From positions 1-22,457 of the IMG/VR virus record IMGVR_UViG_3300024518_004094: a stretch of 22,457 nt of DNA. The stretch is one strand, 5' to 3'. The notes below the pieces were generated by a model, which searched no databases, had not been told where the DNA came from, and saw only the letters and a program-made list of their open reading frames with translations. Source of the DNA: a virus. The stretch's first letter is position 1; each line of letters starts with the position of its first letter. Both the position numbers and the translations under genes were made by a program. This document shows positions 1,185 through 19,300 of this stretch, in pieces.

Positions 1185-1356
1185 TGGAGTATTAATTACA
1201 TATCCGCTGGATAAAAGCGTTATACCCGACTGTTTTAGTCAGGGTTCTAGGATCGTGGAGAAAATATCCACGTACCAGGGACCCGGGCCTGAACAAGGCT
1301 GGTACCTCAATAAATCACGCCATAAGATTCAAGTAGGTGGATTTTATTGTGAATAA
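1156..1356 (+). CDS. Small exported or membrane-linked hypothetical protein (66 aa)
   Basis: The N-terminus (MTKIIIFLASGVLITYPLD) is a short positively charged hydrophobic segment like a signal peptide or anchor. It is followed by a SVIPDCFSQGSR block and a C-terminal GGFYCE; two cysteines lie outside the hydrophobic segment. I recall similar short proteins with a PLD-SVIPDC block in marine phages, without assigned function. It overlaps the upstream gene by 29 bases. Bases 1272-1290 form a seven-base-period GTACC/GGACC/GGCCT array within the coding region, so this part of the protein may be shaped by the repeat rather than by function. The start is plausible but has no clear ribosome site. 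Confidence 0.5.
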   Translation: MTKIIIFLASGVLITYPLDKSVIPDCFSQGSRIVEKISTYQGPGPEQGWYLNKSRHKIQVGGFYCE

Positions 1357-1359
1357 ACG

Positions 1360-1394
1360 TACCGATCCCTAGAAGGGAGTTGAAGGAATCGGTA
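1360..1394. terminator. Inverted repeat between convergent genes, possible weak terminator
   Basis: Arms TACCGAT (1360-1366) and ATCGGTA (1388-1394) are perfect complements, with a nested CCCT/AGGG pair at 1367-1370 and 1374-1377. It begins 3 bases after the stop of the plus-strand operon and faces a minus-strand gene ending at 1447. There is no T-run on either side, so termination is only suggested. Confidence 0.35.
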
Positions 1395-1446
1395 ACAAAA
1401 GGTGAGAATGTTCTCGTCCTCTACCACATTTTGGACACAATGTCAA

Positions 1447-1677
1447 TTAGGTCTTTTCTTCAGGCTTTATCGTCTTTTCTCTACATGAAAATTTAATATA
1501 AACTTTATTAATATTAATATAATCATCTCCCATAACATTATATAGAGTCAGGGTATCATGGGTTCCGGCTCTCATACACTCGGCCCAGTTAAGAAAAGTA
1601 CTATTTTTCTCATAGGGAACTTGGCATTGATCATACAACGCAGAGCAAATAATGATGCTTAAAACTATAATTTTCAT
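1447..1677 (-). CDS. Small secreted cysteine-containing protein (76 aa)
   Basis: A minus-strand gene inside a plus-strand region. The N-terminus MKIIVLSIIICSALYDQC is a clear signal peptide or lipoprotein-like segment. It is followed by about 55 residues with cysteines at 18, 34 and 65, so disulfides in the periplasm are likely. Small proteins with the pattern signal, C, WxxCxxAG, ..., xFxC are common in marine SAR11-type phages as I recall them; their role is unknown (envelope or superinfection functions are guesses). It is divergent from the gene at 1719, with only 41 bases between the starts. After its TAA the frame stays open for 25 codons with a zinc-finger-like motif (see findings). Confidence 0.65.
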   Translation of the reverse strand: MKIIVLSIIICSALYDQCQVPYEKNSTFLNWAECMRAGTHDTLTLYNVMGDDYININKVYIKFSCREKTIKPEEKT

Positions 1678-1678
1678 G

Positions 1679-1707
1679 TTGACAAGGTTCTAGTAAAATC
1701 CTATATT
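1679..1707 (+). promoter_or_regulatory. Sigma-70-type promoter, TTGACA-17-TATATT
   Basis: TTGACA at 1679-1684 and TATATT at 1702-1707 with exactly 17 bases between them. The predicted start near 1714 leaves only about 5 bases before the ATG at 1719. The -35 box begins 2 bases from the start codon of the divergent minus-strand gene, so expression of the two genes may be linked. Confidence 0.75.
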
Positions 1708-1718
1708 ATAAATCAATT

Positions 1719-1904
1719 ATGAAGGATAAAGATACTATGTTTAGAAAGCTGGCGAAAGAGATTGCTCTGCATAAATCACAAAACGATTTACTTAAAGAAC
1801 AATTGAGAATTTGCGAGCAACGTAATAAAATTCTTCATAAATATATTAACAATTATATAGATCAAACCAAAGAAAAGGAAAAGAAAAATGACAGATATAA
1901 CTAA
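1719..1904 (+). CDS. Small coiled-coil protein (61 aa)
   Basis: A charged, helix-forming protein with leucine/isoleucine spacing typical of a coiled coil through QNDLLKEQLRICEQRNKIL, ending in a K/E-rich tail. No enzyme motif is present. The ATG at 1719 lies only about 12 bases after the -10 box, leaving no room for a ribosome site. A second in-frame ATG at 1737 is preceded by AAGGA at 1722-1726 and may be the true start, giving 55 residues. It overlaps the following gene by 17 bases. It may act as a partner or oligomerisation factor; nothing more can be inferred. Confidence 0.55.
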   Translation: MKDKDTMFRKLAKEIALHKSQNDLLKEQLRICEQRNKILHKYINNYIDQTKEKEKKNDRYN

Positions 1905-2082
1905 ATATCGAAATGTATCCTTAACACATGAAGTATATGCAAATCTAATCAAGATTTCAAAGACGCTTACACGTGTTCCAGGAGTAAAGGTTTCCATTAG
2001 TAAAACAGTGGAAACACTGGCTGAACAAGAAATACAATTGCTCAACGGAAAACTAAAGAAAAAAGAAGAAAAGAAAAAATAA
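1888..2082 (+). CDS. Putative ribbon-helix-helix-like DNA-binding protein (64 aa)
   Basis: The N-terminal part reads YRNVSLTHEVYANLIKISK and is followed by SISKTVETLAEQEI. This fits a beta-strand-helix-helix arrangement of Arc/CopG-type ribbon-helix-helix proteins, in which the strand (NVSLT) touches DNA and the two helices dimerise. The C-terminus is a lysine-rich tail. The family assignment is by pattern only. AAAAGGAA at 1873-1880 precedes the ATG with a 7-base spacer. If the fold is right it could be a regulator acting on palindromic sites in this genome (candidates at 6655-6800 and 11119-11143). Confidence 0.6.
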   Translation: MTDITKYRNVSLTHEVYANLIKISKTLTRVPGVKVSISKTVETLAEQEIQLLNGKLKKKEEKKK

Positions 2083-2084
2083 AA

Positions 2085-2483
2085 ATGAGAGGAAAGACAT
2101 CAGCAAATCACGACGCTATCACAATGCAGCAGCGTACCAAAGAACCGGAAGAAAATCTTTGGACCGCTGTCCTAACACGGGCGGCTCAAGATGTTTTTAC
2201 CACCAGTGATTGGGCGGCTACTCAAGCAGCCATAGCATGGTTTAAAAGTAAAAGTAGGGATTTTAGAGAGGTGTGTGAATTAGCAGGAAGAAATCCTCAA
2301 TACGTTTATAGTAAAATATTACCTAAGATTAATGATAGAGAAAAATATATTAATACCCTAAAAGAAAGACGTCCCTATGCAAAAGGTATGTCTCCTCTTA
2401 TTTTAAGGAATAGAATTTCAAGAAATAGAAAGGTAAATATAAATGGAAAAGAATATGCTTCAAATAATTTGTCAAACGTGTAA
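2085..2483 (+). CDS. Conserved phage protein with helix-turn-helix-like segment (132 aa)
   Basis: Residues 25-80 (LWTAVLTRAAQDVF..., AIAWFKSKSRDFREVCELAG, NPQYVYSKI) have the look of an all-helical domain of a type frequent in marine phages. The DFREVCELAGRNPQYVYSKI stretch reads as a helix-turn-helix, suggesting DNA binding. The C-terminus is very basic (RNRISRNRK). It starts 2 bases after the preceding stop without a strong ribosome site, and overlaps the following zinc-knuckle gene by 41 bases. A transcriptional role is inferred from shape only. Confidence 0.55.
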   Translation: MRGKTSANHDAITMQQRTKEPEENLWTAVLTRAAQDVFTTSDWAATQAAIAWFKSKSRDFREVCELAGRNPQYVYSKILPKINDREKYINTLKERRPYAKGMSPLILRNRISRNRKVNINGKEYASNNLSNV

Positions 2484-2643
2484 CGGAAATGGATATATAA
2501 AACACAATGGACTTTATGAAGAAACAATTATACAGTGTCACGATTGTAAAAGTGAAGGAGAGACAAAAAATAATGACTCCAAAATGGCAAAAATTAGTAA
2601 TGCTTCTAATGGTTCTAAGTATTACAGCTGTCCTCATAACTAG
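2443..2643 (+). CDS. Small DnaJ-type zinc-knuckle protein (66 aa)
   Basis: The sequence contains CQTCNGNGYIK and CHDCKSEGE, two CxxCxxxG elements spaced as in one zinc site of the DnaJ central domain (four cysteines binding one zinc). No J domain is present; such isolated knuckles are common small phage proteins. AAAGGT at 2428-2433 precedes the ATG. The C-terminal ~23 residues overlap the lipoprotein gene in a different frame, so only the first ~43 residues are likely to be functionally constrained. Role unknown. Confidence 0.6.
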   Translation: MEKNMLQIICQTCNGNGYIKHNGLYEETIIQCHDCKSEGETKNNDSKMAKISNASNGSKYYSCPHN

Positions 2644-2863
2644 TTGTTCTGAGTTTGCACTCTTAGCAAGCGGGAGTTCTTTGGCCATTAGTCAAAATAC
2701 GTATGCTAAAGTGTATAATGGTGTAGATGTATTAACAATTATGAATACAGAAAAAAGTATGAAGAGACACGTTTACGACAACGCCAAGAAAGCATGGGCA
2801 GAAACAAAAGAAGGAAAGAAATATATTTATGACCAATCAATCGACCTCTTTAAAAATAAATAA
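2573..2863 (+). CDS. Small lipoprotein-like protein (96 aa)
   Basis: Starting at ATG 2573 the protein opens with MTPKWQKLVMLLMVLSITAV followed by LITSC, a signal peptide with a lipobox-like ending. The mature part contains ASGSSLAISQNTYAKVYNGVDVLTIMN and a basic helix with KRHVYDNAKK. I recognise this mature sequence type from SAR11-type phage contigs; function unknown. The frame is open upstream to 2507, but that extension would bury the signal peptide. AAGGAG near 2555-2560 is a somewhat distant ribosome site. The product probably sits in the outer membrane or periplasm, where lysis or superinfection exclusion are possible but unproven roles. It overlaps the glycosyltransferase by 35 bases. 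Confidence 0.65.
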   Translation: MTPKWQKLVMLLMVLSITAVLITSCSEFALLASGSSLAISQNTYAKVYNGVDVLTIMNTEKSMKRHVYDNAKKAWAETKEGKKYIYDQSIDLFKNK

Positions 2864-3794
2864 TGGTCTCCCGATGGGTGGGACCGAACTCCAATCACAA
2901 TTAATTTATTCACGACTTAACCCTAAGTTACTGAAAAATAAGAATATTATTCTCTCTGTCTGTGATCCCAAAAGATTAAAAAAAGATGAAATAAATATTA
3001 TTTGGCAACAGCTAAGTTATGACCAACAAAATATTCAACGAATGAAGGACAGAAAATTTGTTGATAATGTAGACTGGTTTGTTTTTAATTCTCACTGGTC
3101 CTTCACTGAATTTAGAAGACGATTTGGTTGTCCTGAATATAAATCAAGAGTTATACAAAACTGTATTGCTCCTTTCCCTTTTAAAATTAAAAAACCAAAA
3201 GATAAAATAAAACTTATTTATACTTCTACACCCTGGCGTGGACTCGCAGTCCTAGTCAGAGCGATTGAAATATTAAATGAAACTAGAAAAGATTTTGAAG
3301 TAGATATTTATTCTTCTACTGAAATTTATGGAGAAGGATTCGCCGAATCTATGGGAACTAAATTTGAACCAGTCTTTGCAAGATGTAAGGAGATTTCTAA
3401 CATTAATTTTAAAGGTTATGCACCCAATGATCAGGTACGAGGTGCATTAATGAATGCTCATATATTTGCATATCCTTCAGTATTTGAAGAGACCTCTTGC
3501 ATTGCAGCCATCGAGGCATTAGCTGCCGGTTGTCGAGTAGTCACCACTAACTATGGTGCTCTTCCAGAAACCTGTGGATCTTTTGCACGTTATGTTGAGT
3601 TTGAAACTGATGCTGGACGTTTGATTGAAAATTATGCCAGCGCTCTCAATGAGGAAATGGACATGATTTATAGTCAAGAAACCAAACAAGATTTAGATTT
3701 ACAAATTAATCATTACAACACGCGTTGGTCAGTCATTCAACGAATCAAACAATGGGAGGCTTTTCTTGGACAAGCAGACGCTAATAGCGGATAA
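2829..3794 (+). CDS. GT4-type glycosyltransferase (321 aa)
   Basis: A GT-B-fold, family 4 type retaining glycosyltransferase that transfers a sugar from a nucleotide donor. The N-terminal acceptor domain begins with the glycine-rich NNGLPMGGTEL (residues 11-21). The linker TSTPWRGL (132-139) opens the donor domain. The donor motif YPSVFEETSCIAAIEALAAG (215-234) has the E-x7-E pair (E221, E229) and is followed by NYGALPET. At 321 residues it is a compact version typical of cyanophages and pelagiphages. The ATG at 2829 lies inside the lipoprotein gene; the conserved GLPMGGTEL block makes the later ATG at 2874 unlikely. It overlaps the next glycosyltransferase by 29 bases. Targets could be phage DNA, capsid or host surface glycans. 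Confidence 0.85.
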   Translation: MTNQSTSLKINNGLPMGGTELQSQLIYSRLNPKLLKNKNIILSVCDPKRLKKDEINIIWQQLSYDQQNIQRMKDRKFVDNVDWFVFNSHWSFTEFRRRFGCPEYKSRVIQNCIAPFPFKIKKPKDKIKLIYTSTPWRGLAVLVRAIEILNETRKDFEVDIYSSTEIYGEGFAESMGTKFEPVFARCKEISNINFKGYAPNDQVRGALMNAHIFAYPSVFEETSCIAAIEALAAGCRVVTTNYGALPETCGSFARYVEFETDAGRLIENYASALNEEMDMIYSQETKQDLDLQINHYNTRWSVIQRIKQWEAFLGQADANSG

Positions 3795-4479
3795 GCCTAC
3801 CGTCTATGTCGCGATGCCCTGCTTTGATGTGGTGCAACGTGATACCTGTGTTTCTTTAATGAAACTCTTTGGTGAGTTTCGTAAAGTCGGAATCAGTAGT
3901 CAATTTAATGTGGTGAAATCTTCCTTAATAAATTACGCTAGGAATCTAGCAACCTGTGGATTTCTTGCTAGCAAGTGTGATCACATGCTCTTTGTTGATT
4001 CAGATGTTGAGTTTGAACCGGAAGCAGTCTTACGCATGTTAGTGGTTCAAAAAGATATTGTCTGTACTCCCTATCGAATTAAATTACAAGATACTACACA
4101 GGTCAGATATGCTGTTGATTATCCTGACAGAGACAAAATAGAAATGCTCCCGGGTGGGATTATAGAAGTAGAGCAAGGGCCCGCAGGACTCATGGTGATT
4201 CACCGTCGAGTTTTTGATAAACTGATGAAGGTTCATCCTGAAATGCATATCAAGCACACCGGCGCTCTCACTAAAGAAATGAATAGTAAATATTTATATA
4301 ACTTTTGGGATACAACCTTTAATCCCAAGATAGGATTATGGAAAGGTGAGGATTTAGCCTTTTGTGATCTTGCTCGAAGTGTAGGATTTAAAATTTATGC
4401 CAATACAGAATCCACGATGATTCATCATGGAACTTTTGGCTGGGAAGGAAAATTTGGTGACAGTATCGACAAAAAATGA
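3766..4479 (+). CDS. GT-A-fold glycosyltransferase (237 aa)
   Basis: A nucleotide-sugar transferase of the GT-A (family 2-like) fold. The N-terminus has a strand (TVYVAMPCF), the DHMLFVDSD segment supplies the metal-binding D78-x-D80, and KGEDLAFCDLAR near residue 200 resembles the acceptor/catalytic region, followed by IHHG. The start codon is TTG at 3766, supported by GGGAGG at 3754-3759 with a 6-base spacer. It overlaps the GT4 gene by 29 bases, so the two enzymes are made together and probably act in sequence on one acceptor. The acceptor is unknown. Confidence 0.82.
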   Translation: MDKQTLIADKPTVYVAMPCFDVVQRDTCVSLMKLFGEFRKVGISSQFNVVKSSLINYARNLATCGFLASKCDHMLFVDSDVEFEPEAVLRMLVVQKDIVCTPYRIKLQDTTQVRYAVDYPDRDKIEMLPGGIIEVEQGPAGLMVIHRRVFDKLMKVHPEMHIKHTGALTKEMNSKYLYNFWDTTFNPKIGLWKGEDLAFCDLARSVGFKIYANTESTMIHHGTFGWEGKFGDSIDKK

Positions 4480-4492
4480 TAAAGTCCTAACC

Positions 4493-4711
4493 ATGGACGA
4501 AGATATTAAATTAAATAAAGTTTACCAAGATGTATTTAAATTGGCGATGACACTTTCTGAAAAGTATCCTCAGCAGGTTGTTGCCTCTACTTATATGGCT
4601 ATTGCTATGCGATTGTATCGTACGGCGTTGGCTGAAGAAGAGTATGGACGTCTCATGAGATTTATTATGGATACTCCAGTAGAGCCTTTCAATACACCAA
4701 CCTATCATTAA
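4493..4711 (+). CDS. Conserved small phage protein (72 aa)
   Basis: An all-helical small protein (IKLNKVYQDVFKLAMTLSEK, VASTYMAIAMRLYRTAL) of a type I recall near glycosyltransferase and nuclease genes in marine phages. No function is known and no catalytic motif is seen. The frame is open from 4427, but that would overlap the glycosyltransferase by 53 bases and give an unconserved-looking leader, so the ATG at 4493 is preferred. The last base of its TAA is the first base of the next ATG (4711), indicating coupled translation. Confidence 0.6.
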   Translation: MDEDIKLNKVYQDVFKLAMTLSEKYPQQVVASTYMAIAMRLYRTALAEEEYGRLMRFIMDTPVEPFNTPTYH

Positions 4712-5136
4712 TGACTGAAGAAGAGAAAGCATACATCGCCGGACTATTCGACGGTGAGGGGTGTGTAACCTGTAAGCAAAGGAAAACTAAACGCAAGGAC
4801 CGAGGAGATAAGATCTATAACCAGTGGTACATCCGCTGTGAGATTGCCATGACCGATCGCGGTGTGATCGAGTGGCTCCATCGAACCCTAGGCTTTGGCT
4901 GGTGGAAAGAAAAGAAATATAATAATCGACCTGGAAATTATAAAAGACAATGGCGCTGGTGCTGTGGTTACCGAGACGCATTGATCTTTGCTAAGTTACT
5001 CTGGCCTTACGCACAGATTAAACTTCATCATTTAGAAAAGATCATTGATCATTACGAACCGTTGGCCCCACCCCCTGAACCTAACGTGGTGGACCTGGCT
5101 GAGTATCGTCATAAAAAAGTGATGGCTTATGAGTGA
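4711..5136 (+). CDS. LAGLIDADG-like homing endonuclease-type protein (141 aa)
   Basis: A single LAGLIDADG-type motif is visible near the N-terminus as YIAGLFDGEGCV (residues 8-19), with the acidic residue that coordinates metal. A basic, tryptophan-rich middle follows, then KLHHLEKIIDHYEP. Single-motif members normally work as homodimers that cut long DNA sites. This one is free-standing, with no intron or intein around it, as is common in marine phages. The C-terminal NVVDLAEYRHKKV tail is not part of the endonuclease core. It overlaps the ParB-like gene by 8 bases. It could still be an active mobile gene, or a domesticated DNA-binding protein. Confidence 0.75.
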   Translation: MTEEEKAYIAGLFDGEGCVTCKQRKTKRKDRGDKIYNQWYIRCEIAMTDRGVIEWLHRTLGFGWWKEKKYNNRPGNYKRQWRWCCGYRDALIFAKLLWPYAQIKLHHLEKIIDHYEPLAPPPEPNVVDLAEYRHKKVMAYE

Positions 5137-5449
5137 GACTTTAAGATCCGATCGTAATGACTTTCCGGAACGCTACCATGAGCATGCCATCGAGGACCTG
5201 GTGTGGGATAAACCTAATAGCCTTGGGACTCCTGAGCTAGAAAAATTAAAAAAAAGTATTTTAGAAAAAGGAATGATTTACCCGATTGTCATTCGACCGA
5301 AGGATAAGGATAAACCTGAGGTTATGAATGTTCAGGTGGGCAGGCAGCGAATATGGATTGCCAAGGAGCTGGGCTATACGCACATCTCGACTTATCATTC
5401 TGACTTTGAAGACATTAACTTTGGGAATAGATTACAATGGAAAAAATAA
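5129..5449 (+). CDS. ParB/sulfiredoxin-like domain protein (106 aa)
   Basis: Residues 37-85 match the ParB N-terminal/Srx fold: LEKLKKSILEKGMIYPIVIR, then NVQVGRQRIWIAKELGYTHI. The usual DGxHR box is replaced by VGRQR (70-74), which keeps the arginine. The protein is just this one domain, with no helix-turn-helix, so it is not a classical segregation protein. In phages such domains occur as nucleases, CTP-binding switches or parts of DNA-modification systems. It overlaps the upstream gene by 8 bases and the next 56-aa gene by 13 bases. Confidence 0.7.
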   Translation: MSETLRSDRNDFPERYHEHAIEDLVWDKPNSLGTPELEKLKKSILEKGMIYPIVIRPKDKDKPEVMNVQVGRQRIWIAKELGYTHISTYHSDFEDINFGNRLQWKK

Positions 5450-5607
5450 AAAAAGATAATTATGAGGCTACGGCAGAATGCATCGTGACCGAACAGGTCT
5501 CGGCTCCTGAGATTGTAGAGTTGTTTAAAGATAAAAAATTTTATAAATGGTATCAACTTAATTATATGCCTTTAAGTGTTGACCCTGACAATCATGAGTA
5601 TGAATGA
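5437..5607 (+). CDS. Small hypothetical protein (56 aa)
   Basis: A short acidic protein: MEKIKKDNYEATAECIVTEQ at the start, then APEIVELFKDKKFYKWY, ending in DNHEYE. It fills the only gap between the ParB-like and exonuclease genes. It overlaps the first by 13 bases and the second by 4 (ATGA), and this tight fit in a coupled run is the main support. The KFYKWYQLNY segment is aromatic-rich. No family is recognised; it might be a small partner of its neighbours. Confidence 0.55.
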   Translation: MEKIKKDNYEATAECIVTEQVSAPEIVELFKDKKFYKWYQLNYMPLSVDPDNHEYE

Positions 5608-6335
5608 GTGGAACGTGTATTATGGCTGAAATGAGAGAGGACCGAGCACCGGTGAAATGGAATAAAAAATTTAATTATGTCCGGGGTCCGAGAACCACGG
5701 TCCAAGGCTCACGGACCTACGAGGTTGGTGGCCGAAATCTCCCGAGTGTAACGACTATCCTTGCAAAGACCAAGGATCAGGAATATATCGAGCGATGGAA
5801 AAAAAGAGTCGGATATGAAAAAGCAGACTACATCAAGAATTATAGTAGCAAGCGTGGCACTGCCATGCATAAGTTCATTGAGAAACACCTCGAAGGTACT
5901 GGGTATGATGACCTTACTGAGATTGGACGGGAGGCGAAGCCCATGGCACAAAAGATTATTGAGGTGGGTCTTGCACCGATGGAAGAAATTTGGGGCTCGG
6001 AGGTAACACTTTACTACCCGGACCTCTATGCAGGGTCCACGGACCTAGTGGGTATGTACAATGGGAGACAAACTCTCATTGATTTCAAACAGTCAAATCG
6101 CCCAAAGCAGCGTGAGTGGGTAACAGATTACTTTTTGCAAGTAGCAGCATACTGCATGGCTCATGACTATCTTTATGATACACGAATTGAGCAAGCAATC
6201 ATAATGATATGTACCCCAGATTGCTATTACCAAGAATATAAGGTAGAAGGATTAAACCTAAGACAACATAAATACGATTTTATGGAAAGAATGGATAAAT
6301 ATTATGACCAATCACATCAACAACCCGTTCTATAA
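5604..6335 (+). CDS. PD-(D/E)XK exonuclease, RecB/Cas4/MGME1-like (243 aa)
   Basis: A RecB-family single-strand or DNA-end exonuclease. The motifs appear in order: PSVTTIL (47-53), KRGTAMHKFIEKH (H89), a conserved glutamate near E132, AGSTDLVG (D147), the DxK signature LIDFKQS (D160, K162), and QVAAYCMAH (Q179), the usual helix after the active site. The length is typical of phage MGME1-like enzymes. It probably takes part in genome recombination, end processing or degradation of host DNA. Two seven-base-period GGWCC arrays lie inside the gene (5685-5717 and 6020-6045), the second across the D147 motif. It overlaps the 56-aa gene by 4 bases and the next gene by 32. Confidence 0.85.
   Translation: MSGTCIMAEMREDRAPVKWNKKFNYVRGPRTTVQGSRTYEVGGRNLPSVTTILAKTKDQEYIERWKKRVGYEKADYIKNYSSKRGTAMHKFIEKHLEGTGYDDLTEIGREAKPMAQKIIEVGLAPMEEIWGSEVTLYYPDLYAGSTDLVGMYNGRQTLIDFKQSNRPKQREWVTDYFLQVAAYCMAHDYLYDTRIEQAIIMICTPDCYYQEYKVEGLNLRQHKYDFMERMDKYYDQSHQQPVL
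5685..5717 (+). repeat. Seven-base-period GGWCC array, five units, inside the exonuclease gene
   Basis: Five-base cores start at 5685 (GGTCC), 5692 (GAACC), 5699 (GGTCC), 5706 (GGCTC) and 5713 (GGACC), each exactly 7 bases after the last. Three match GGWCC perfectly and two differ by one or two bases. A shorter pair lies just upstream (GGACC 5639, GCACC 5646). Confidence 0.75.
6020..6045 (+). repeat. Seven-base-register GGWCC array in exonuclease active-site region
   Basis: GGACC at 6020, GGTCC at 6034 and GGACC at 6041 lie at offsets 0, 14 and 21, so all are in one seven-base register. The 6027 position (TATGC) is degenerate. The array spans codons 139-148, including D147. Confidence 0.6.
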
Positions 6336-6597
6336 AGCATTAGAACTTAAGTATGCAGCCGAGGTAGAAGATGCCAAAGCCAAGATAACCTTATACTTTA
6401 GTAATCCTCAAGGGGTAGCTGATCACTCAGGTATTACTGAAGAGTTGGATAAATTACTACATAAGATGTCATCAGCGATGGAAAGGGTATATCAACTCCG
6501 TCAACACTTTGGTCCTCAATCTGTTAAAGATGTCAAAACTAAGGCAGATGATGGCGAAACTAAGGCAGAAACCGTACCTAAAACGTCCTCTATATAG
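6304..6597 (+). CDS. Conserved small phage protein (97 aa)
   Basis: A helical, charged protein: NPFYKALELKYAAEVEDAKA and LDKLLHKMSSAMERVYQLRQ suggest a helical hairpin or coiled coil. A low-complexity K/T/E tail (DVKTKADDGETKAETVPK) contains a short internal repeat TKA-D/E. Related sequences that I recall sit downstream of exonucleases in marine phages; their function is unknown, possibly a nuclease or single-strand DNA accessory. It starts within the last 32 bases of the exonuclease and closes this operon before an AT-rich gap. Confidence 0.6.
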   Translation: MTNHINNPFYKALELKYAAEVEDAKAKITLYFSNPQGVADHSGITEELDKLLHKMSSAMERVYQLRQHFGPQSVKDVKTKADDGETKAETVPKTSSI

Positions 6598-6844
6598 TAT
6601 TCTACAAGAAAATATTTTTTTATTTTTTTTATTTTCAAATATTTTTGGTTCTTTGGTACAAATAGATTATTATCATTGGTATATATAATTAATTGTGTAC
6701 CATAAATAATTTTACTGTACCAAATATATGGTACAATATTCAAATAATACAATAAAATAGGCGATTCTAGCGCTTTATGATTTTATTTATTTTTGGTACA
6801 CACATACTACTTATAGTAAGGGTGTAGTTATGATAGGGTGAGGT
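6598..6844. promoter_or_regulatory. AT-rich intergenic region with five GGTACA sites (candidate operator or origin)
   Basis: A 247-base noncoding stretch, extremely A/T-rich, with long T tracts at 6615-6650. GGTACA occurs at 6655-6660, 6730-6735 and 6795-6800, and its complement TGTACC at 6696-6701 and 6716-6721. Flanking bases are also shared (W-TTTGGTACAMA). Sites at 6716-6722 and 6729-6735 form a 7-bp inverted repeat with a 6-base centre. The last site lies just before TATAGT (6812-6817), a possible -10 box for the 6845 gene. This could be a repressor-controlled promoter or a replication-origin element. Confidence 0.6.
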
Positions 6845-7776: not shown

Positions 7777-8331
7777 TTATGTGGCCTCAGAGTCAGTGGC
7801 TTCAACTTTTTCTGGTGGTTCTAGCGCTTTCACTTCTTTGGTGGGTGATGGTGGCGGCTCCTCTACTTCACCTTCGATTTGTTGGGCTTTAAGAATTGGT
7901 GCGTAATCCTCTAAAATCTGTTTCATTTTGGCCTCTAGTTCACCTTCTGACATATCTTCTAATTTTCCTGTTTTTATTATCTTTTGTTCTATATATAATC
8001 CCGCTGCTTTTCCTCGCATATTTTCCGCGTTGGCGGCTGCAGAAAAAGAGCCTCTCTTTAACGCCGCGTCTCTAATCTTTGCAAGTTCTGTGATATGACG
8101 TTCGTATGTTACTTCGAATCTTCGAAGTCTTTCTTCTCTTAATTCTCCTAAATATTTTACAACCAATGGGAAGTATCTTGGATTCTGTAATCTAGAAGCC
8201 ATTGGTCTTGCATTGTCTTTGGAATAGCCAGCGTCGATACAGGCCTGATGCCCCGTCGTACGCCCTTCATTATATACAAGCATTTCGCAGAATCTCATCT
8301 GCATTTCAGTTAATCTTTTAGGTACACCCAT
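7777..8331 (-). CDS. terS: Terminase small subunit (184 aa)
   Basis: The DNA-recognition subunit of the packaging terminase. LTEMQMRFCEMLVYNEGRTT with ACIDAGYSKDNARPMASRLQ forms the helix-turn-helix of Terminase_2-type proteins. A helical segment (ITELAKIRDAALKRGSFSAA, AAGLYIEQKI) fits oligomerisation, and the C-terminus is acidic and proline-rich. The frame is open to a TTG at 8388, but the predicted transcription start (about 8370) lies downstream of it. The ATG at 8331 has AGGA 7 bases upstream and is preferred. It lies on the strand opposite to the large subunit and about 5 kb away, so the subunits are transcribed separately. The ribosome site is buried in a 10-bp hairpin. Confidence 0.8.
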   Translation of the reverse strand: MGVPKRLTEMQMRFCEMLVYNEGRTTGHQACIDAGYSKDNARPMASRLQNPRYFPLVVKYLGELREERLRRFEVTYERHITELAKIRDAALKRGSFSAAANAENMRGKAAGLYIEQKIIKTGKLEDMSEGELEAKMKQILEDYAPILKAQQIEGEVEEPPPSPTKEVKALEPPEKVEATDSEAT

Positions 8332-8336
8332 AATAA

Positions 8337-8370
8337 GGTCCTGTCCGGTTTGTGGTGGAGGGACAGGACC
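8337..8370 (-). promoter_or_regulatory. Perfect 10-bp hairpin in the terS leader covering its ribosome site
   Basis: GGTCCTGTCC (8337-8346) and GGACAGGACC (8361-8370) are exact inverted repeats with a 14-base loop. On the minus-strand mRNA the hairpin would begin at or next to the predicted 5' end, and its 3' arm contains the AGGA upstream of ATG 8331. It may control translation or RNA stability, or be a protein site in DNA. Confidence 0.7.
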
Positions 8371-8376
8371 ATTGAC

Positions 8377-8405
8377 AATATAGGCCAACTAAAGTAATAT
8401 GTCAA
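8377..8405 (-). promoter_or_regulatory. Sigma-70-type promoter for terS, TTGACA-17-TATATT
   Basis: On the minus strand TTGACA lies at 8405-8400 and TATATT at 8382-8377, separated by 17 bases. It is identical in boxes and spacing to the promoters at 276 and 1679. It sits between the divergent terS and the 8407 gene. Confidence 0.75.
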
Positions 8406-9012: not shown

Positions 9013-9378
9013 ATGACACCAGAAAGAAAATTATGGCATGAGCTTAAAAGAAATACACCTCAAATTACATGGACAAGGCTTGAAAATTTTGCTGGAGTTG
9101 GTACTCCTGATCTATTGGGGTATGCTAATTCTGGGCACTTTTTTACTGTTGAGTTAAAGGTCACAAAAGCCAATAAGATTCGATTCTCTCCCCACCAAAT
9201 ATCATTTCATATCACACATCCCAAGAATACATTTATCTTAGTAAAGGCCCTTGGTCCTTGTACCATGAAACTTTTTCCAGGATCCCTGATCCAGGAACTA
9301 GTGAAGGAAGGCTATGCTTGTGAGTCCGGGGTCCAGGGTCCCTGGTCCACGGTGCTTGAGCCTCTGCTTGCTTGTTGA
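9013..9378 (+). CDS. VRR-NUC/Hjc-like PD-(D/E)XK nuclease (121 aa)
   Basis: A compact restriction-fold nuclease. The signature runs GVGTPDLLGY (D33) then FFTVELKV (E47-x-K49) and a conserved Q62 in PHQISFH. This matches VRR-NUC and archaeal Hjc-type Holliday-junction resolvases, which cut branched DNA; phages use them to resolve replication intermediates before packaging. The core ends near residue 100. The last ~25 residues (SGVQGPWSTVLEP...) are encoded by seven-base-period GGTCC arrays and look like repeat-derived extension. Adjacent packaging genes fit a debranching role. Confidence 0.8.
   Translation: MTPERKLWHELKRNTPQITWTRLENFAGVGTPDLLGYANSGHFFTVELKVTKANKIRFSPHQISFHITHPKNTFILVKALGPCTMKLFPGSLIQELVKEGYACESGVQGPWSTVLEPLLAC
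9246..9355 (+). repeat. Three seven-base-period GGWCC-type arrays at the nuclease 3' end
   Basis: First array: cores at 9246 (GGCCC), 9253 (GGTCC), 9260 (GTACC). Second: 9281 (GATCC), 9288 (GATCC), 9295 (GAACT). Third: 9323 (AGTCC), 9330, 9337 and 9344 (all GGTCC), 9351 (GGTGC). Within each array the spacing is exactly 7 bases. Confidence 0.75.
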
Positions 9379-9442
9379 TTATGTGTTGGACCTGCTTGTT
9401 GATTGCTTGTGTGTATGTGCTTGCTTGTTTTTTGTTTTTTTC
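9366..9442. repeat. CTTG-rich simple repeats left of the Gp88 gene
   Basis: Repeated TGCTTG/GCTTGCTTGTT words, two copies of TGCTTGTTGAT and a GCTTGCTTGTTTTTT copy at 9419-9433. The 15-base copy recurs at 10141-10155 on the other side of the GC-rich gene. The stretch lies between two convergent genes and appears noncoding. Confidence 0.55.
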
Positions 9443-9492: not shown

Positions 9493-10101
9493 TTAATGTT
9501 TTTTGTATTGAATTTCTTTGACATCTTTGTTCCAACAGGCGCGACAGCTGCCGCACTTCATACCTTGTTCAGGGGCCGGGCAGACATAGACGCCAGCTCG
9601 GGGCTTCGTCACGACGGTCGACCAATGAGTCCAGGCCTGACCCGGGACTGTATCATTCTTTGCATTCGATAGTCTAATAATTAAATTTGGTGGAATTGTG
9701 GAGCCCGGAAGCGGCAGGTATTGTCTCTCCTGTGTTGGCAGCCAGTGACTGGTCTCCGGCGTGCTTGCGCATACTTCGAATATTTTCCGGAGATGGTCCG
9801 CGCTCTGCAGGTCCCCTGAGTCGTGCCAGCGGAAGTGCTTCTTGCCCTTGATCAGTGTTGCCATGGCCTTGGTCCAGGATCCATGGTTCAAGCTCTTCAG
9901 GCGACGCTCCAGCGCTGCCTTCTGTATTGGCATTATATATCGATTCTTTAAAGCATAGCATCCATGGCACGGGGTGCCCGGAACCAGGGCCAGCTTAGCT
10001 CCTGTCTGGCAGGCTGCGGCCGGAATACTATAGGCGCCTTCAGGCATCTTGCCTGGTGCGCTCAGTCCTCCGGTGATCTTGCTTGCTTCTTTCTTTAACA
10101 T
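9493..10101 (-). CDS. Gp88-family phage protein (202 aa)
   Basis: A member of the mycobacteriophage gene-product-88-like family (PF17338-like), function unknown. Recognisable blocks are SKITGGLSAPGKMP (7-20), SIPAAACQTG (25-34), PGTPCHGCYALKNRY (41-55), HFRWHDSGDLQSADHL (89-104) and LPTQERQYLP. The C-terminal cysteine cluster is YVCPAPEQGMKCGSCRACW (172-190), with C31, C45 and C48 further upstream. The cysteines suggest a metal or iron-sulfur site. The gene is clearly richer in G and C than its surroundings and is flanked by CTTG-type repeats, suggesting transfer. Its ATG lies only 6 bases past the -10 box, so the mRNA may be leaderless. Arrays at 9864-9889 and 9965-9990 lie within it. Confidence 0.75.
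   Translation of the reverse strand: MLKKEASKITGGLSAPGKMPEGAYSIPAAACQTGAKLALVPGTPCHGCYALKNRYIMPIQKAALERRLKSLNHGSWTKAMATLIKGKKHFRWHDSGDLQSADHLRKIFEVCASTPETSHWLPTQERQYLPLPGSTIPPNLIIRLSNAKNDTVPGQAWTHWSTVVTKPRAGVYVCPAPEQGMKCGSCRACWNKDVKEIQYKKH
9864..9889 (+). repeat. Seven-base-period array inside the Gp88 gene
   Basis: Cores at 9864 (TGGCC), 9871 (GGTCC), 9878 (GATCC) and 9885 (GGTTC), each 7 bases apart. Confidence 0.55.
9965..9990 (+). repeat. Seven-base-period array inside the Gp88 gene, second
   Basis: Cores at 9965 (GGCAC), 9972 (GGTGC), 9979 (GGAAC) and 9986 (GGGCC), each 7 bases apart. More degenerate than the other arrays, but keeping the GG...C form. Confidence 0.45.
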
Positions 10102-10106
10102 ATCAT

Positions 10107-10135
10107 TTAATATCCTATTTGTGCTTGTTTGTCAA
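10107..10135 (-). promoter_or_regulatory. Sigma-70-type promoter for the Gp88 gene, TTGACA-17-TATTAA
   Basis: On the minus strand TTGACA is at 10135-10130 and TATTAA at 10112-10107 with a 17-base spacer. The start codon at 10101 lies 6 bases beyond the -10 box, so transcription would begin at or about the ATG. Confidence 0.65.
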
Positions 10136-10136
10136 T

Positions 10137-10172
10137 TCTTGCTTGCTTGTTTTTTTTTGCTTGTTTTTTTTT
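10137..10172. repeat. CTTG/T-tract repeats right of the Gp88 gene
   Basis: Contains CTTGCTTGCTTG followed by T9, then GCTTG and T9-10. It shares GCTTGCTTGTTTTTT (10141-10155) with 9419-9433. Confidence 0.55.
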
Positions 10173-13056: not shown

Positions 13057-13063
13057 ACTAATC

Positions 13064-13086
13064 AAGGCGCCGCTTCGCGGCGCCTT
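13064..13086 (+). terminator. Strong 10-bp GC hairpin ending the 11182-13056 operon
   Basis: AAGGCGCCGC (13064-13073) and GCGGCGCCTT (13077-13086) pair perfectly around a 3-base TTC loop, 8 bases past the stop. No T-run follows, so termination may need other factors, but position and strength fit a terminator. Confidence 0.6.
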
Positions 13087-13105
13087 GGTCGCGGGACCAC
13101 GATCC
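13087..13105 (+). repeat. Seven-base-period GGWCC array, noncoding
   Basis: Cores at 13087 (GGTCG), 13094 (GGACC) and 13101 (GATCC), 7 bases apart, directly abutting the terminator hairpin. This shows the arrays are not an effect of codon choice. Confidence 0.55.
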
Positions 13106-13148
13106 AATAGAGGTACCAGCCCCGATCTCAAACTCCAACAGCAGCAAC

Positions 13149-13180: not shown

Positions 13181-13202
13181 CCACTACTTTTGGGTGAATT
13201 GC

Positions 13203-13231
13203 TTGATTTAGAGTGTCATAGCTGTTAAATA
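13203..13231 (+). promoter_or_regulatory. Possible promoter for terL
   Basis: TTGATT (13203-13208) and TAAATA (13226-13231) are 17 bases apart, ending 17 bases before the ATG. Both boxes are imperfect. Confidence 0.35.
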
Positions 13232-13248
13232 CATTTTGGGACTCCTAT

Positions 13249-14730
13249 ATGAACTTAAATAATATAAATATTTCAGAATTACCTGCGGATGTCCGAAAAA
13301 CCTACAAAAGGTACCAGGTAATGCATGCCGAAAAAAAAATACAAAATTTAGCCAAGACGGATTTTTTATCTTTCGTGAAGTGTGTATGGCCTGAATTTAT
13401 TGAGGGGCCCCATCACAGGCACGTTGCAGAAAAATTTAATAAATTAGCCAACGGCGAAATAAAAAGATTAATTATTAATATGCCACCCCGGCATACAAAA
13501 TCAGAATTTGCTTCTTATTTACTACCCTCCTGGATGGTGGGACGAAATCCAAAATTAAAAATTATTCAAGTTACCCACACCGGAGAATTAGCTATTAGAT
13601 TTGGTCGTAAGGCAAAACATTTAATTGATTCTCAAGAATATTCTAAAATTTTTAAAACCCGATTACAGGAAGATAGCAAAGCCGCTGGGAGGTGGGAAAC
13701 AGCACAAGGCGGCGAGTACTTCGCTGCTGGAGTCGGCGGTGCAATCACCGGACGGGGTGCTGACTTATTAATCATTGACGATCCACACTCGGAACAAGAT
13801 GCGTTATCTCCGAGTTCCTTGGAGAATGCATATGATTGGTATACTTCAGGACCACGACAACGTCTTCAACCTGGTGCTTCAATCGTTTTAGTTATGACAA
13901 GATGGAGTACAAAAGATTTAACGGGGATGTTATTACGACATCAAAAAGAAGTTAAAGGAGATCAGTGGGAATTGGTAGAATTTCCTGCCATTTTAGGCGA
14001 TGGCACAGAAGAAGAGGAATCAGTTTGGCCAGAATATTGGAAGATGGAAGAATTACAAAAAGTCAAAGCGACTCTTCCGGTTGGAAAATGGAATGCTCAA
14101 TGGATGCAGAATCCAACTTCCGAAGAAGGAGCAATTATAAAGCGAGAATGGTGGCGTCCTTGGAAGAAAGACTGGATTCCTGAGCTCCACTATGTTATTC
14201 AATCTTATGATACGGCCTTCTTAAAGAAGGAAACAGCCGATTATTCTGCGATTACCACGTGGGGTGTTTTTTATCCAGCGACAGAGATGCCGGGAAATTT
14301 AATTTTGTTGGATGCTTATAAGGGTCGGTTAGAATTTCCTGATTTAAGACGAAAAGCTCTGGAACATTATAAATATTGGAATCCTGAAATGGTACTAATT
14401 GAATCTAAAGCGTCTGGATTACCTTTGACTTACGAACTTCGTCAAATGGACATTCCAGTTGTGAATTTCACACCGAGTAAAGGTAATGATAAACACGTGA
14501 GAGTTAATTCAATTGCACCACTTTTTGAAAGTGGGGTTATTTGGGCTCCAGAAACAAAATTTGCGGAAGAAGTGATAGAAGAATGTGCTGCATTCCCGTT
14601 TGGGGACCATGATGATTTAGTGGATAGCACTACGCAAGCTTTAATGCGCTTCAGACAGGGAGGATTTCTTCCTCATCCTGAAGATTATGTAGATGAAAAA
14701 AGGTCACAAGAGAAACGGAATTATTATTAA
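13249..14730 (+). CDS. terL: Terminase large subunit (493 aa)
   Basis: The packaging motor: an N-terminal ATPase and a C-terminal RNase-H-fold nuclease. The P-loop-like MPPRHTKSEF (78-87) is the variant PPRHxKS form. Walker B is LLIIDDPHS (173-181), with a coupling segment LVMTRWS (214-220). The nuclease carboxylates are D321 in QSYDTAF, E385 in LIESKASG, and D453/D455/D456 in GDHDDLVDS. The length is normal for podoviral Terminase_6-type proteins. It abuts the next gene with a one-base TAATG overlap. The small subunit is about 5 kb away on the other strand. The start follows a hairpin-rich gap; no good ribosome site is visible. Confidence 0.93.
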   Translation: MNLNNINISELPADVRKTYKRYQVMHAEKKIQNLAKTDFLSFVKCVWPEFIEGPHHRHVAEKFNKLANGEIKRLIINMPPRHTKSEFASYLLPSWMVGRNPKLKIIQVTHTGELAIRFGRKAKHLIDSQEYSKIFKTRLQEDSKAAGRWETAQGGEYFAAGVGGAITGRGADLLIIDDPHSEQDALSPSSLENAYDWYTSGPRQRLQPGASIVLVMTRWSTKDLTGMLLRHQKEVKGDQWELVEFPAILGDGTEEEESVWPEYWKMEELQKVKATLPVGKWNAQWMQNPTSEEGAIIKREWWRPWKKDWIPELHYVIQSYDTAFLKKETADYSAITTWGVFYPATEMPGNLILLDAYKGRLEFPDLRRKALEHYKYWNPEMVLIESKASGLPLTYELRQMDIPVVNFTPSKGNDKHVRVNSIAPLFESGVIWAPETKFAEEVIEECAAFPFGDHDDLVDSTTQALMRFRQGGFLPHPEDYVDEKRSQEKRNYY

Positions 14731-16307
14731 TGAGAAAAGAACTTTTTAACGAAATATTTGGTCTAATGAAAAAATTAGACATTCCTCTTAACCTTGGAAC
14801 TCGAACTAATGTGAAAAGATTACCTGCTGTGCAAGATATGACTAATCAGGTGCTTAGTGAAGGACGTTTACAAAATTACGTTGATGAAAAAGGTGTTGAT
14901 TTGGTATTAAAACTTTTTGCACGAGATGGTGCTTATATTCCTCATCTTAATGATCTAGAAGGAAAACAGTTTTTATCAAATTTGAAAACTTTTGATAAAA
15001 TCAAAAACCCACCAACGCCTAAAAGTGCAGAAGTTCATTTATTTTCTAAATTACCAGGTGATCCAATCACTCCAGAAGCATTCACTGGTCAAAAAGCCCG
15101 TGACCAAGCAATGTTTTCATCTGCCATTTTAAAACAAAGCATGAATTTATCCAAAATTGACCAAGATCTAGCAAAAAAATTAAATTTGGATATGTCCAAG
15201 ATTTCTGATTTTGAGAAATTACAAGTATGGAAAGATAAACATGGAGTACCGGATTTTACTAAAGACGAAGGTGTTGGATCCTTATTTAAAACAATAAGTA
15301 AGGACCCTGTTGCCGATGTTGGAAAGATAATGGATAATCTTGAAAAAGAAGGTAAATCCCTTGTTGACCAAATGACAAAAATTACTGATCTGGCTTATAA
15401 AATGTCTCCTGAGGGTATAGCGGCTGCAGAAGCGGCAAGGAAATCTTTACTTAAAAGAATGAGCGAAGGTAAAGGTTTTGCCGGTGGTGTTTTTGGTAAA
15501 AGAAATGATGGATATTTTAGGGCCTTGGTCCGTCCATTTTTGCTCAAAGAACATGAAGCTGGAAGAATTAAACTGGCGGACAATACTTTAGGTTCTCTTA
15601 AAAATAGCAACGATATTAAATCCGGTGGAGGAAACGATTTTATGTATCCGGATCCGGTTAGAATTTTCAGACACCATTATGGCGATGATGCCTTTGACTT
15701 GATCCCTGATCAAGAGGTGTTTGGTATGGGCCCTTCTGGTTATGGCCCAACACGAGATAGAATTAACGAAGTGATGATTAAAGCCGGGATTAAACCGACC
15801 ACGGTCCAAGGACCAGGAACCCCGGGCGGTTATCTAACCAAAGGGGAATACCAAGCCAAGCTCGATGAGCTTGATGAGGTGAGAGGTTATATCAAAAATA
15901 AAGAAGGCCGATTTGGAGATATGTCGGAAACAGAAATTGCAGAAGAATTTGCTGATCTTGATCAAAAAGGAGCTTCTATCAAAAGGGCGATGGAAATAGA
16001 TCATCCCAAACCAAAAAAAGACCGACCCAGTATTCGTATCATAAAAAATTTCGAAAGAGATCTGACAGATATTGAATTAGCGCAAGAAGGTTATAACCTT
16101 CAAGAAATTCAAATTCTCATGAGAGCTCAACAAGTGATGAAAAAGGAAGGACAGAATCCTGATGACGCACTTGCCTGGGTCCGTGGTCAAATGGCGGATG
16201 ATGCTGGCGTCGAGTTTGAAGAATTCATGCCCGACTTTGACTGGGGCGACTTCCCAGGAAAATATTCCACAGGCGGTGGCGTAGGCTCCATGTTTAGGAG
16301 AGTTTGA
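14730..16307 (+). CDS. Large phage protein, probable virion-associated (525 aa)
   Basis: A soluble, lysine-rich protein between terL and portal, of a type I recognise from uncultured marine phages but with no assigned function. Recognisable blocks include RIIKNFERDLTDIELAQEGY, MRAQQVMKKEGQNPDDALAW and VRGQMADDAG near the C-terminus. It ends in KYSTGGGVGSMFRRV, a glycine-rich tail resembling the SEGGRVGMKFGGE module inside the following protein. Position suggests an internal or head-assembly protein. The bases at 15796-15821 form a seven-base-period array that encodes the TTVQGPGTPGG linker. It starts on the last base of the terL stop. Confidence 0.65.
   Translation: MRKELFNEIFGLMKKLDIPLNLGTRTNVKRLPAVQDMTNQVLSEGRLQNYVDEKGVDLVLKLFARDGAYIPHLNDLEGKQFLSNLKTFDKIKNPPTPKSAEVHLFSKLPGDPITPEAFTGQKARDQAMFSSAILKQSMNLSKIDQDLAKKLNLDMSKISDFEKLQVWKDKHGVPDFTKDEGVGSLFKTISKDPVADVGKIMDNLEKEGKSLVDQMTKITDLAYKMSPEGIAAAEAARKSLLKRMSEGKGFAGGVFGKRNDGYFRALVRPFLLKEHEAGRIKLADNTLGSLKNSNDIKSGGGNDFMYPDPVRIFRHHYGDDAFDLIPDQEVFGMGPSGYGPTRDRINEVMIKAGIKPTTVQGPGTPGGYLTKGEYQAKLDELDEVRGYIKNKEGRFGDMSETEIAEEFADLDQKGASIKRAMEIDHPKPKKDRPSIRIIKNFERDLTDIELAQEGYNLQEIQILMRAQQVMKKEGQNPDDALAWVRGQMADDAGVEFEEFMPDFDWGDFPGKYSTGGGVGSMFRRV
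15796..15821 (+). repeat. Seven-base-period GGWCC array in the 525-aa gene
   Basis: Cores at 15796 (CGACC), 15803 (GGTCC), 15810 (GGACC) and 15817 (GAACC), 7 bases apart. It encodes TTVQG, the same residues that the array in the exonuclease encodes at its positions 31-35. Confidence 0.65.
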
Positions 16308-19300
16308 TGGCCTCTAACAAAGACACCACTTTAAAATTAATCCGGCAATATGAAGCTCTTGTTGAAAGAGGTTTGGCACAAGGAGATTTAAGTAAAACCC
16401 CTAGCTTTGCTACATGGGTGGAAAAGAAACACGGCCGTTCCGCTATGAGACTTGCGCAGACCGTTATCCATGAATTTCCTCAAGAATTTTCTACGCCCAA
16501 GATAGCGGAAGCTAGAGATACTTTACTTAAAACATTAATTGCAGAAGCTAATCAAGGTGAAAAATTTGTAGAGCTGAACACTCTTTTAGACAAAGTGAAT
16601 GTGGTTGAAGGAGGAAGAGTCAGAGGAGGACTTTTTGATAAAAATTCTCCTTTACTTCATACCAAAGAAGATAAAGTTAGAATGGCCTTTGATAATATCG
16701 TGGAGGCGGATGAAATTATAGAATGGCCTAAAAAATCTACGAAGAATCTTAAATATGCTAAAACCCCTTTAATGGCCATGATTGGAGAACGAACAGGAGT
16801 TTCAGGTCCTCAATATATGGATGCAGTTTTAGCAAAAGGAAAATTAAGAGATAGTAATTTTTCAAAATTCAATATTTATAAACCCAAACATATTTATGAT
16901 AAGGAACTTGTAAGAATTGCGGGCAACACCGGGGTTATAGAGTCCGGCAAACCTTTTTCTGAAATTATGGCAGACGCTAAGTATAGAGCGGGAGGGGGAG
17001 TTCAATGGAGTAAGGCACAAGGGGTTCGTCCCGATCCTGCTGAGACTATTAATAATTTTGCGCTAAGACACTGGGACCATCATAAAAAACATCAAACCGG
17101 AAACTCTCAAATAGAATTTTTTTGGAACAAGAAAAAAAATGCGAAGGGTAAACCTTTGGCGGTGGATTGGGAAACCGTTCCTAAAAATAAAAGAGGATTT
17201 AAATCCTTAAAAGGAAGCCAGGTATTTTTTAGATACAAAAACGAGAACTGGGGTATTGATAAATTAAGAAGGGAAGGAAGACAGTCTAAATTATTTAAAG
17301 AAGTTTATGCTGCTAAACAGGAGTATAATAAACTTTTAGCTAAATCAGTCCCTGATCCTAACAACCCTAATAAGAAGATATCTTTCGAAACACTAATGAA
17401 AAGAACCTATAAAAAAGGTTATGATACATTAGGAAATATTTATGCCGTAGATCACGAAAAATTAGTTGCCGACAAACCTTTTAATGCTTTAAGAGTAGCG
17501 AGCCGAAGATTAAATGATCAGTTAAGTTATATTGCTCATCATGCGAAGCAAAAGAATTTTAAAAAGATTTTAACGAATGCTTTAGATCTTACTCAGTTAG
17601 ATGATCCATTAAGAGCTGGGCAAGAGTTAGCGGAAGAGGTTTTGGTGGAAGGTTATAAAAGTCCCTTAACTGGACCCCAAGAATTAGCTCAAACAGTTTT
17701 AAAAAAAGACGTAGATAAGTTAAGTCGACCCATGGCTAATCAATTAGTTAATTTGTTTTCTGTTTCTACCAATGAGGAACTTGTAAGACCCATTCTAGAC
17801 GCGGCAAATTTACCAGGAGCTAAAATTTGTGGTGTTGTTTTTGGACAAGGAAAAAGATTTGGCACTGCTGCCGGAGGTCCTCCCGGAGGATGTCCTGATG
17901 AAATGGCTCAGGCTTTAAATGAAAATCCAGATGAAGTTTTTAAAAAAGTAGCAGAATCTAAACAAAAAGGAGGAGCTTTAGGTCGAGCTTCTAATTGGGC
18001 AAAAAATATTTTAACTAAAGTTCCTAAAGGCGGAAGACTCGGCGCTATTCTCACTGGTGCGGGAGCCGTGGGCGCTGGTACGTGGGCCATGATGGGTGGA
18101 GCGAAGGCTGAAGAACCCGGGACCACGGAACTCGAAGCTCAAGACATCACGATCGATCAACCCGAAAGCATGATGTACAACGCAACCGAAGGAAACTTCG
18201 TCAATGCCGAGGGAGAACGAGAAACTCAACCGGGAATGTTGAACTGGATTGCCGACAATCCAACCAAATCAAGTTTGGCAGCGATGCCTCTCGCGATGGG
18301 AGCAGGTTTCGGATTAGAGAAGCTCTCATCAAAATTTGGAAACGAATCCGTAGCCAGAAGCGGATTAAAATCAGCAGGAAGATATTTAACAGGATGGAAA
18401 GCATTAATTCCAGCCATGATGATTCCTCATGCGCTCCATGAGTATAAGGCAGGCTATGACCTTCCAGAAATGGTAACCAATCCCATCAATGCGTTATGGG
18501 CATTAGGGATTAGAGGAGAAAAGGATTTAAAATTAGTAAAAGAGTATTATGATGATATGAAAAAAGTAGGTCGTCGAGGATTAGACATGACAACTTTAAA
18601 AGGTTTAAAGAGTGTTCAGGGATGGAAAGAATTACCTGGTAATTTTAAAACAGCGATGATGTCACCAGCAGCCAAAGGAACGAATATGGCTTTTGGTACA
18701 ACCTTTAGAAAACCTTTTGTGGCGACGATGGGTGCTTTAGATGGTATCGCCAAAACTGAAGGAGCTAAAGCCTGGGGAAAAAGAGCGCTCTTACGATCTG
18801 CTTTAATTCCAGCGGGCATTTTAGCGGCAACACCAGCAGGATGGTTAACCGCAGGATTCTTAGGAGCAGACTTCCTTTGGGATCAGTATAAAGATTACCG
18901 AGATGGAAATGTTCGAATTGATGAAATGAGAGCTCGAGGAGCCATTTCAGAAGATGAAGCCGATAACTATCGATCGTTAATTCTTCAAGGCAGCATTCCT
19001 TTCGGAATGGGCAATCGAATGTTCGGTCCTGACACCATGAAAATTGGGGGACAGGATTTAGATCCAACCCAACAACGAGAATTGTTAAAGGGCATGGAAG
19101 CGCAACTTGATGAGTGGCAAGCGGGAGATATGGAAAGACGTGCGAAACACAGAGAAGATGATTTTACCTTCAGTGAAGGTGGAAGAGTGGGCATGAAGTT
19201 TGGTGGAGAAATGGATCGAAGAACATTCTTAAAATGGTTAGGGGCTCTAGCAGCGGGTGCGACGGGTATCTTGAAAGGTAAAAGTAAAGATATCGTTAAG

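Follow-up and report, generated by a model that had tools for sequence, protein, structure and literature searches.

Tandem 8-bp met boxes, which lie upstream of promoters, are read by MetJ, a ribbon-helix-helix (RHH) protein. Here we describe arrays of short words repeated every seven or eight bases in pelagiphages. They were analyzed in a 22457-base stretch of the virus record IMGVR_UViG_3300024518_004094 (hereafter the window, i.e. the whole stretch), which is a fragment of an HTVC027P-like pelagiphage, and in its relatives. Two layers were distinguished, GCTTG arrays being the stronger and GGWCC-like heptads the weaker. Met boxes resemble the 8-bp units of the octad lineages of these phages, but the met box is palindromic, while GCTTGNNN is not.

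The RHH protein omega of plasmid pSM19035 binds promoter-overlapping arrays of 7-bp units, with one dimer per heptad (PMC9499535). In the phage arrays, as in the parS/operator heptads of omega (ParB), several direct units of 7 bp adjoin one another. Both kinds also occur at promoters: omega-type operators overlap them, and phage arrays meet them in 149 of 255 cases beyond the GP88 gene, though not in the first cluster (5 of 227). The words differ (WATCACW versus GCTTGNN) and, unlike omega heptads, the phage units all have the same orientation, the spacing is 8 bp in sister lineages, and the reader is a candidate. The pac sites of SPP1 and SF6, like the phage arrays, have direct repeats near the gene for the terminase small subunit (TerS); in SPP1 these repeats extend over the promoters of terS and the start of the gene (PMC4737164), whereas the phage arrays lie upstream of the gene and do not covary with TerS. 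The TAACTGA arrays of Beggiatoaceae and cyanobacteria are heptamer direct repeats, mostly intergenic as are the phage arrays (PMC4679880). They comprise one heptamer, in cellular genomes and mostly near start codons, whereas the phage units leave two bases free. HTVC023P-type pelagiphages are described as widespread but little known (PMC9599517, in whose text the string “palindrom” does not occur), and a literature search, with subscription journals outside its reach, found no paper on these arrays.

The existence of the phage arrays, their strand, spacing, family spread, promoter contact and the selection on their words are established. We tentatively interpret them as selected tandem recognition (operator-like) sites of HTVC023P/HTVC027P-type pelagiphages and their relatives, with a proposed RHH-type reader, an explanation that we consider plausible though not yet probable. 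The strong form is (GCTTGNN)n between the terminase genes, and most copies beyond GP88 end where the -35 box of a leftward promoter lies. A small phage RHH-type protein would bind one word per dimer, and bound dimers would line up along a 7- or 8-base ladder, presumably controlling these promoters. The GGWCC heptads are a looser, near-palindromic form, thinly scattered genome-wide and perhaps used by the same reader. With a cis element that is conserved and specific to the family, sites that can be counted along a ladder, and a protein proposed to read them, these pelagiphages offer a directly testable regulatory system, and the shift of spacing between 7 and 8 bases under a constant word provides a natural experiment. 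If this interpretation is true, silent positions of the terminase gene carry DNA-level information. Among the origins proposed in the first-pass annotation of the window, protein binding fits best, while an AvaII-type mark and, for the GCTTG arrays, slippage are not supported.

GCTTG arrays and leftward promoters

A hidden Markov model (HMM) trained de novo on the interval between TerS and the terminase large subunit (TerL) alone converged on (GCTTGNN)n, with the five bases at 93-99%. Its gain was 4016 at period 7 versus 691-821 at periods 5, 6 and 8-11. It distinguished 177 arrays with 929 units, all on one strand, with 0 on the other strand and 0 in 634 kb elsewhere; the orientation is (GCTTGNN)n on the TerL strand, equivalent to (NNCAAGC)n read leftward. 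In 368 loci, a total that contains redundancy (G records overlap L loci), 3944 GCTTG units were found at spacing 7 versus 0 on the opposite strand. Distances between successive GCTTG words were 7 in 2306 cases, 8 in five and 9 in 15 in the heptad genomes (n=165), and 8 in 281 cases and 7 in 28 in the octad genomes (n=38), while locus L578 mixes spacings 7 and 8 within one array. Positions 9025-9142 of L578 match the Rfam Flavobacterium-1 RNA (75.7 bits; gathering threshold 58.9); no RNA family was found at the arrays in the four sources searched.

In the viral collection, 118 of 119 examined loci with the exact five-unit pattern encode HTVC027P-like family genes, and a period-8 pattern yielded at least 84 loci in which the octads are degenerate, of which 76 belong to the same phage family (both among the matches listed). 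A period test confined to GGWCC proved too narrow, as HTVC027P seemed empty in it yet has GCTTG heptads. At least six units occur in 49 of 53 covered loci with a GP88 match and in 6 of 13 without one; the persistence of arrays in the latter led us to reject GP88 as part of a mobile cassette.

The five-unit pattern also occurs in bacterial and archaeal genomes, mainly as exact microsatellites: among the matches listed, 109 of 118 have fewer than four distinct spacers and nine have at least four. The existence of such exact heptamer microsatellites of the GCTTG word speaks for slippage or tandem duplication of a 7-mer, slippage being one of the origins put forward initially. In the phage arrays, however, spacers vary and identical neighbours are depleted (73 of 1845 versus a mean of 141 in 200 within-array permutations, minimum 118), so slippage did not make the GCTTG arrays; furthermore, the TerL heptad sites described below depend on synonymous choices within a conserved protein. 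We therefore regard a mutational origin as very unlikely.

Totals are mostly 18-28 units, and a genome has about 20 direct repeats of the unit, grouped in at least two clusters. Such an arrangement would suit replication-origin iterons or a partition (parS-like) site, and omega/parS serves as both operator and centromere (PMC9499535). Many arrays, however, are abutted by a promoter, and we judge this explanation quite improbable.

Promoter contact was examined for 255 distinct arrays beyond the first cluster by scoring TTGACA/TATAAT-like pairs out of 12. A minus-strand pair scoring at least 10 follows 149 of the 255 arrays beyond GP88, compared with 6 of 255 for shuffled sequences and 1 of 255 on the plus strand. 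A score of at least 9 is reached by 175 arrays, and in 103 of these the -35 box begins at the first base past the array. The abutting leftward promoter has the form TTGACA-17-TATTAT.

This contact also bears on the idea that the arrays are read in single-stranded form, either in RNA or on a displaced DNA strand, by a protein of which each protomer covers 7-8 nucleotides. Strict strandedness, the mixed spacings of L578 and the precedent of CspB, which binds one heptamer per protein (PMC4679880), are consistent with it, but arrays ending exactly at -35 boxes occupy a double-strand promoter position, and the GGWCC-like layer is near-palindromic. Single-strand reading thus seems unlikely.

In the window, GCTTG words persist in a decayed form before the GP88 promoter, and the window is rich in GGWCC heptads. 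The features concerned are:

9366..9427, + strand: degenerate GCTTG words, by position, several of which are separated by multiples of 7 (9366/9394; 9370/9405/9419); TRF period 28 at 9364-9429
10081..10163, + strand: degenerate GCTTG words, by position, at the start of GP88 and upstream of it (the distances within the pairs 10081/10123 and 10145/10159 are multiples of 7); TRF period 14 at 10143-10172
10107..10135, - strand: TTGACA-17-TATTAA, a site resembling a leftward promoter, for the GP88 gene, read from the sequence; it adjoins degenerate CAAGC words at multiples of 7

GGWCC-like heptads in the window and its relatives

The places at which the first-pass annotation had reported GGWCC-related words do carry them at 7-base steps, the array at 9965 being better read from 9973; the pairs at 15700-15710 are present but weak. 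In the window, triples scoring at least 12 of 15 against GGWCC number 25 at period 7 and 10 at period 14 (Markov expectation 0.33), and 0-3 at each remaining tested period within 5-15. The two-unit pattern GGWCCNNGGWCC, with at most one mismatch, has 23 matches versus 0.55 expected and a maximum of 3 in 100 shuffles. A cyclic HMM, run from random starts without the motif, gained 103 at period 7 versus 35-58 at periods 4-6 and 8-11. The arrays, listed without strand, are:

1239..1288 (segments 1239-1260 and 1266-1288): intergenic heptads, HMM posterior above 0.5 with peaks 0.81 and 0.72; triples at 1265 and 1272
5680..5728: array in the exonuclease-like gene, posterior 1.0; a loop that is heptad-like in several relatives too (homologous stretches of 18 relatives compared)
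6015..6050: array in the exonuclease-like gene, posterior 0.98
9245..9363: largest array, at the 3′ end of the gene for the VRR-type nuclease, posterior 1.0; the start point of GCTTG arrays in relatives (anatomy of L115)
9844..9992 (9844-9909 and 9961-9992): arrays in the GP88 gene, posteriors 1.0 and 0.89
13062..13106: heptads upstream of TerL, coinciding in part with a GC hairpin, posterior 0.96
15797..15827: array in the gene 3′ of TerL, posterior 0.99
18112..18138: array in gene 16304-20218, posterior 0.79

The annotation had held that codon bias does not explain these arrays and had called for a lag-7 comparison with codon-preserving shuffles. This was borne out in the main: the 21 in-gene triples of the window exceed those left by synonymous-codon shuffling (mean 3.98, maximum 12 in 60 shuffles), and shuffling of codon order leaves 0.25. 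As synonymous shuffles retain 3.98 and codon-order shuffles 0.25, part of the signal lies at the protein level.

In the window, GGWCC itself occurs about twice as often as expected (52 versus 27.5 by order-2 expectation; maximum 38 of 40), as might be anticipated for a modification or restriction mark at AvaII-type sites. The family-wide unit, however, is the loose GRWYCWW rather than a fixed GGWCC, the strongest arrays use the non-palindromic GCTTG, and it is not evident what part a fixed ladder of 7-base steps would play in modifying such sites. These features leave the AvaII proposal unsupported and, in our view, extremely improbable.

Period-7 heptads recur in related phages, as the annotation had suggested checking. 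In 80 TerL relatives, triples scoring at least 11, 12 and 13 number 690, 205 and 57 at period 7, compared with 81, 7 and 0 in Markov copies; periods 6, 9, 12 and 15 are raised too, as codon structure predicts. When an HMM was started at random on 111 non-redundant relatives, all four of four starts reached the reverse-palindromic unit GRWYCWW, although symmetry was not imposed. In a 1300-chunk sample the gain was 2008 at period 7 versus 763-835 at periods 5, 8, 10 and 11, and higher still at the codon-linked periods 6 and 9 (2984 and 2291). A heptad gain above 1 per kb was found in 139 of 161 loci versus 25 of 161 mirror-reversed copies (161 of 164 loci were used, those below 3.9 kb being excluded). 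Single-genome HMM fits to the TerS-TerL interval gave no period-7 preference in HTVC023P, 023Pt_psg01, DSL-LC04 and G001. With GCTTG arrays masked, the GGWCC-like layer stays at period 7 even in the octad genomes (36 versus 4 at period 8), so that the two layers are separable. The viral contigs L034, L069 and L086 from the pattern scan (GC 49-72%) carry degenerate GGWCC heptads; in L069 one arm has GGTCC and the other GGACC.

Silent sites were analyzed in 80 TerL genes, from the window and 79 relatives. The heptad posterior averages 0.0714 in them, versus 0.0108 after synonymous shuffling (12 shuffles, maximum 0.0117), and two sites reach 0.43 and 0.52. Because the HMM was trained on the same phages, the test was repeated by counting without any training: at lag 7 there are 20 CNNG triples versus 3.8 (20 shuffles, maximum 6), while the other lags from 5 to 13 fall within their own shuffle range, save lag 13 (7 versus a maximum of 6). 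The two sites have the highest codon conservation of all sliding windows, and heptad sites as a group differ in silent-site conservation (0.269 versus 0.109, p 0.0009), although over all TerL columns conservation shows no rank correlation with heptad posterior (rho -0.05, p 0.37). The silent-site tests, the family-wide recurrence and the promoter-abutting GCTTG arrays argue for selection at the DNA level.

The highest 2-kb heptad density falls in the TerS-TerL interval in nine of ten profiled records (G001 is the exception), weakly so in HTVC023P and 023Pt_psg01. Around TerS (78 of 80 TerS loci entered, non-redundant ones used), density reaches 27.6% at a distance of 750-1000 bp upstream and amounts to 0.5% within the gene. 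This location, together with the single fixed orientation of the arrays and the direct repeats within the SPP1 pac site (PMC4737164), fits the packaging signal that had been suggested earlier, i.e. a pac site where TerS docks on repeated words between the terminase genes and packaging starts toward TerL. TerS itself does not track the arrays: its recognition helix varies widely while GCTTG is constant, array-less L185 and L163 share a helix type with array carriers, and TerS pairs 90-92% identical differ in spacing. In addition, the DNA-binding domains of SF6 TerS are described as little specific for pac repeats (PMC4737164), and the window TerS has its own promoter-like site without arrays. 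TerS is thus disfavoured as the reader by the helix comparison; since the arrays peak between the terminase genes, a packaging signal retains a small probability. Contig ends, taken from 67 of 80 loci, cluster in the relatives within the 2.5 kb upstream of TerL, where 43 of 64 left ends fall, and 10 of 49 right ends are within 2.5 kb downstream; the upstream cluster may reflect physical ends or assembly breakage in a variable region.

A candidate RHH-like reader

A protein family traced from a weak RHH_1 match in 023Pt_psg01 is suggested as the reader of the arrays. Its members, of about 55-65 amino acids, were found in 95 loci, and the gene is present in 28 of 29 loci reaching at least 5 kb upstream of the exonuclease, including the window (DSL-LC04 is the miss):

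1888..2082, + strand: RHH-like protein of 64 amino acids, candidate reader (family match E 4.6e-25; translation)

The N-terminal K-Y-[KR]-N-V-S-L is identical in 14 of 14 sequences of the first alignment (A1) and looser in a wider alignment of 66. Sub-threshold profile scores and a profile-profile link between A1 and the octad-type RHH (hhalign prob 85, E 5.8e-6) suggest a putative RHH fold, as does a motif resemblance. Between ten octad or mixed genomes and 54 heptad genomes, the identity of RHH types does not exceed 66%, while TerS reaches 92% identity across the same divide. No Omega_Repress match was found in 12 records.

Several observations weigh against this assignment. Pfam RHH_1 scores only 14.9-19.0 bits for three of seven proteins (cut-off 20.5) and gives no match for the other four, including that of the window; the heptad-type members miss it altogether (0 of 14 in A1). 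AlphaFold monomer models are weak (pLDDT 65 and 71), with two helices at the expected places and no strand, and Protein Data Bank look-ups with the RHH-like model listed helix-loop-helix and other unrelated chains but no RHH chain. RHH-like genes also occur in array-less L185, L190, L196, L163 and G001 (L190 lies within the record of G001), and a homologue is found at 4022-4138 of KT997847 (L626, an Autographiviridae record without arrays). None of 86 RHH-like genes has a GCTTG/CAAGC pair at 7 or 8 in the 200 bp upstream, and the 7/8 label needs four changes on the RHH tree versus three each on those of TerS and VRR. Regarding the arrays themselves, 56 of 106 TerS-TerL intervals lack a GCTTG array (some because the contig is cut), the 227 arrays of the first cluster are without an adjacent promoter (5 of 227 at a score of at least 9), and the two layers may use different readers, as the GGWCC-like one keeps period 7 in octad genomes. 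A more elaborate version of the operator interpretation, in which a phage-encoded omega-like RHH protein coats about 20 heptads between the terminase genes as a nucleoprotein filament, switches the leftward GP88 operon and, via the scattered GGWCC heptads, organises phage DNA genome-wide, lineages having moved from 7 to 8 with a different RHH type, is unlikely.

Genes and minor features of the window

The window TerL is 70% identical to that of the Pelagibacter phage HTVC027P, 66% to that of 023Pt_psg01, 62% to that of HTVC023P and 58% to that of the lake phage DSL-LC04. Family searches named TerS, an exonuclease, the GP88 family and a ParB_N-like domain. The main genes are:

7777..8388, - strand: TerS, terminase small subunit (PHROG E 1.8e-10; Pfam Terminase_2 29.9 bits, cut-off 26.1)
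9013..9378, + strand: nuclease-like gene, presumably of the VRR type (PHROG 2165 E 2.8e-11)
9493..10101, - strand: GP88-family gene (Pfam GP88 E 1.8e-24)
13249..14730, + strand: TerL, terminase large subunit, which in relatives holds the two heptad sites conserved at silent positions

A ParB_N-like protein of 106 amino acids is encoded at 5129-5449, its score of 26.3 bits lying at the Pfam cut-off. Between GP88 and TerL there is a 24-base inverted repeat, 92% complementary (10822-10845/10903-10926). The GC hairpin GGCGCCGCTTCGCGGCGCC at 13062-13085, just upstream of TerL, is a possible terminator and overlaps the GGWCC-like heptads.

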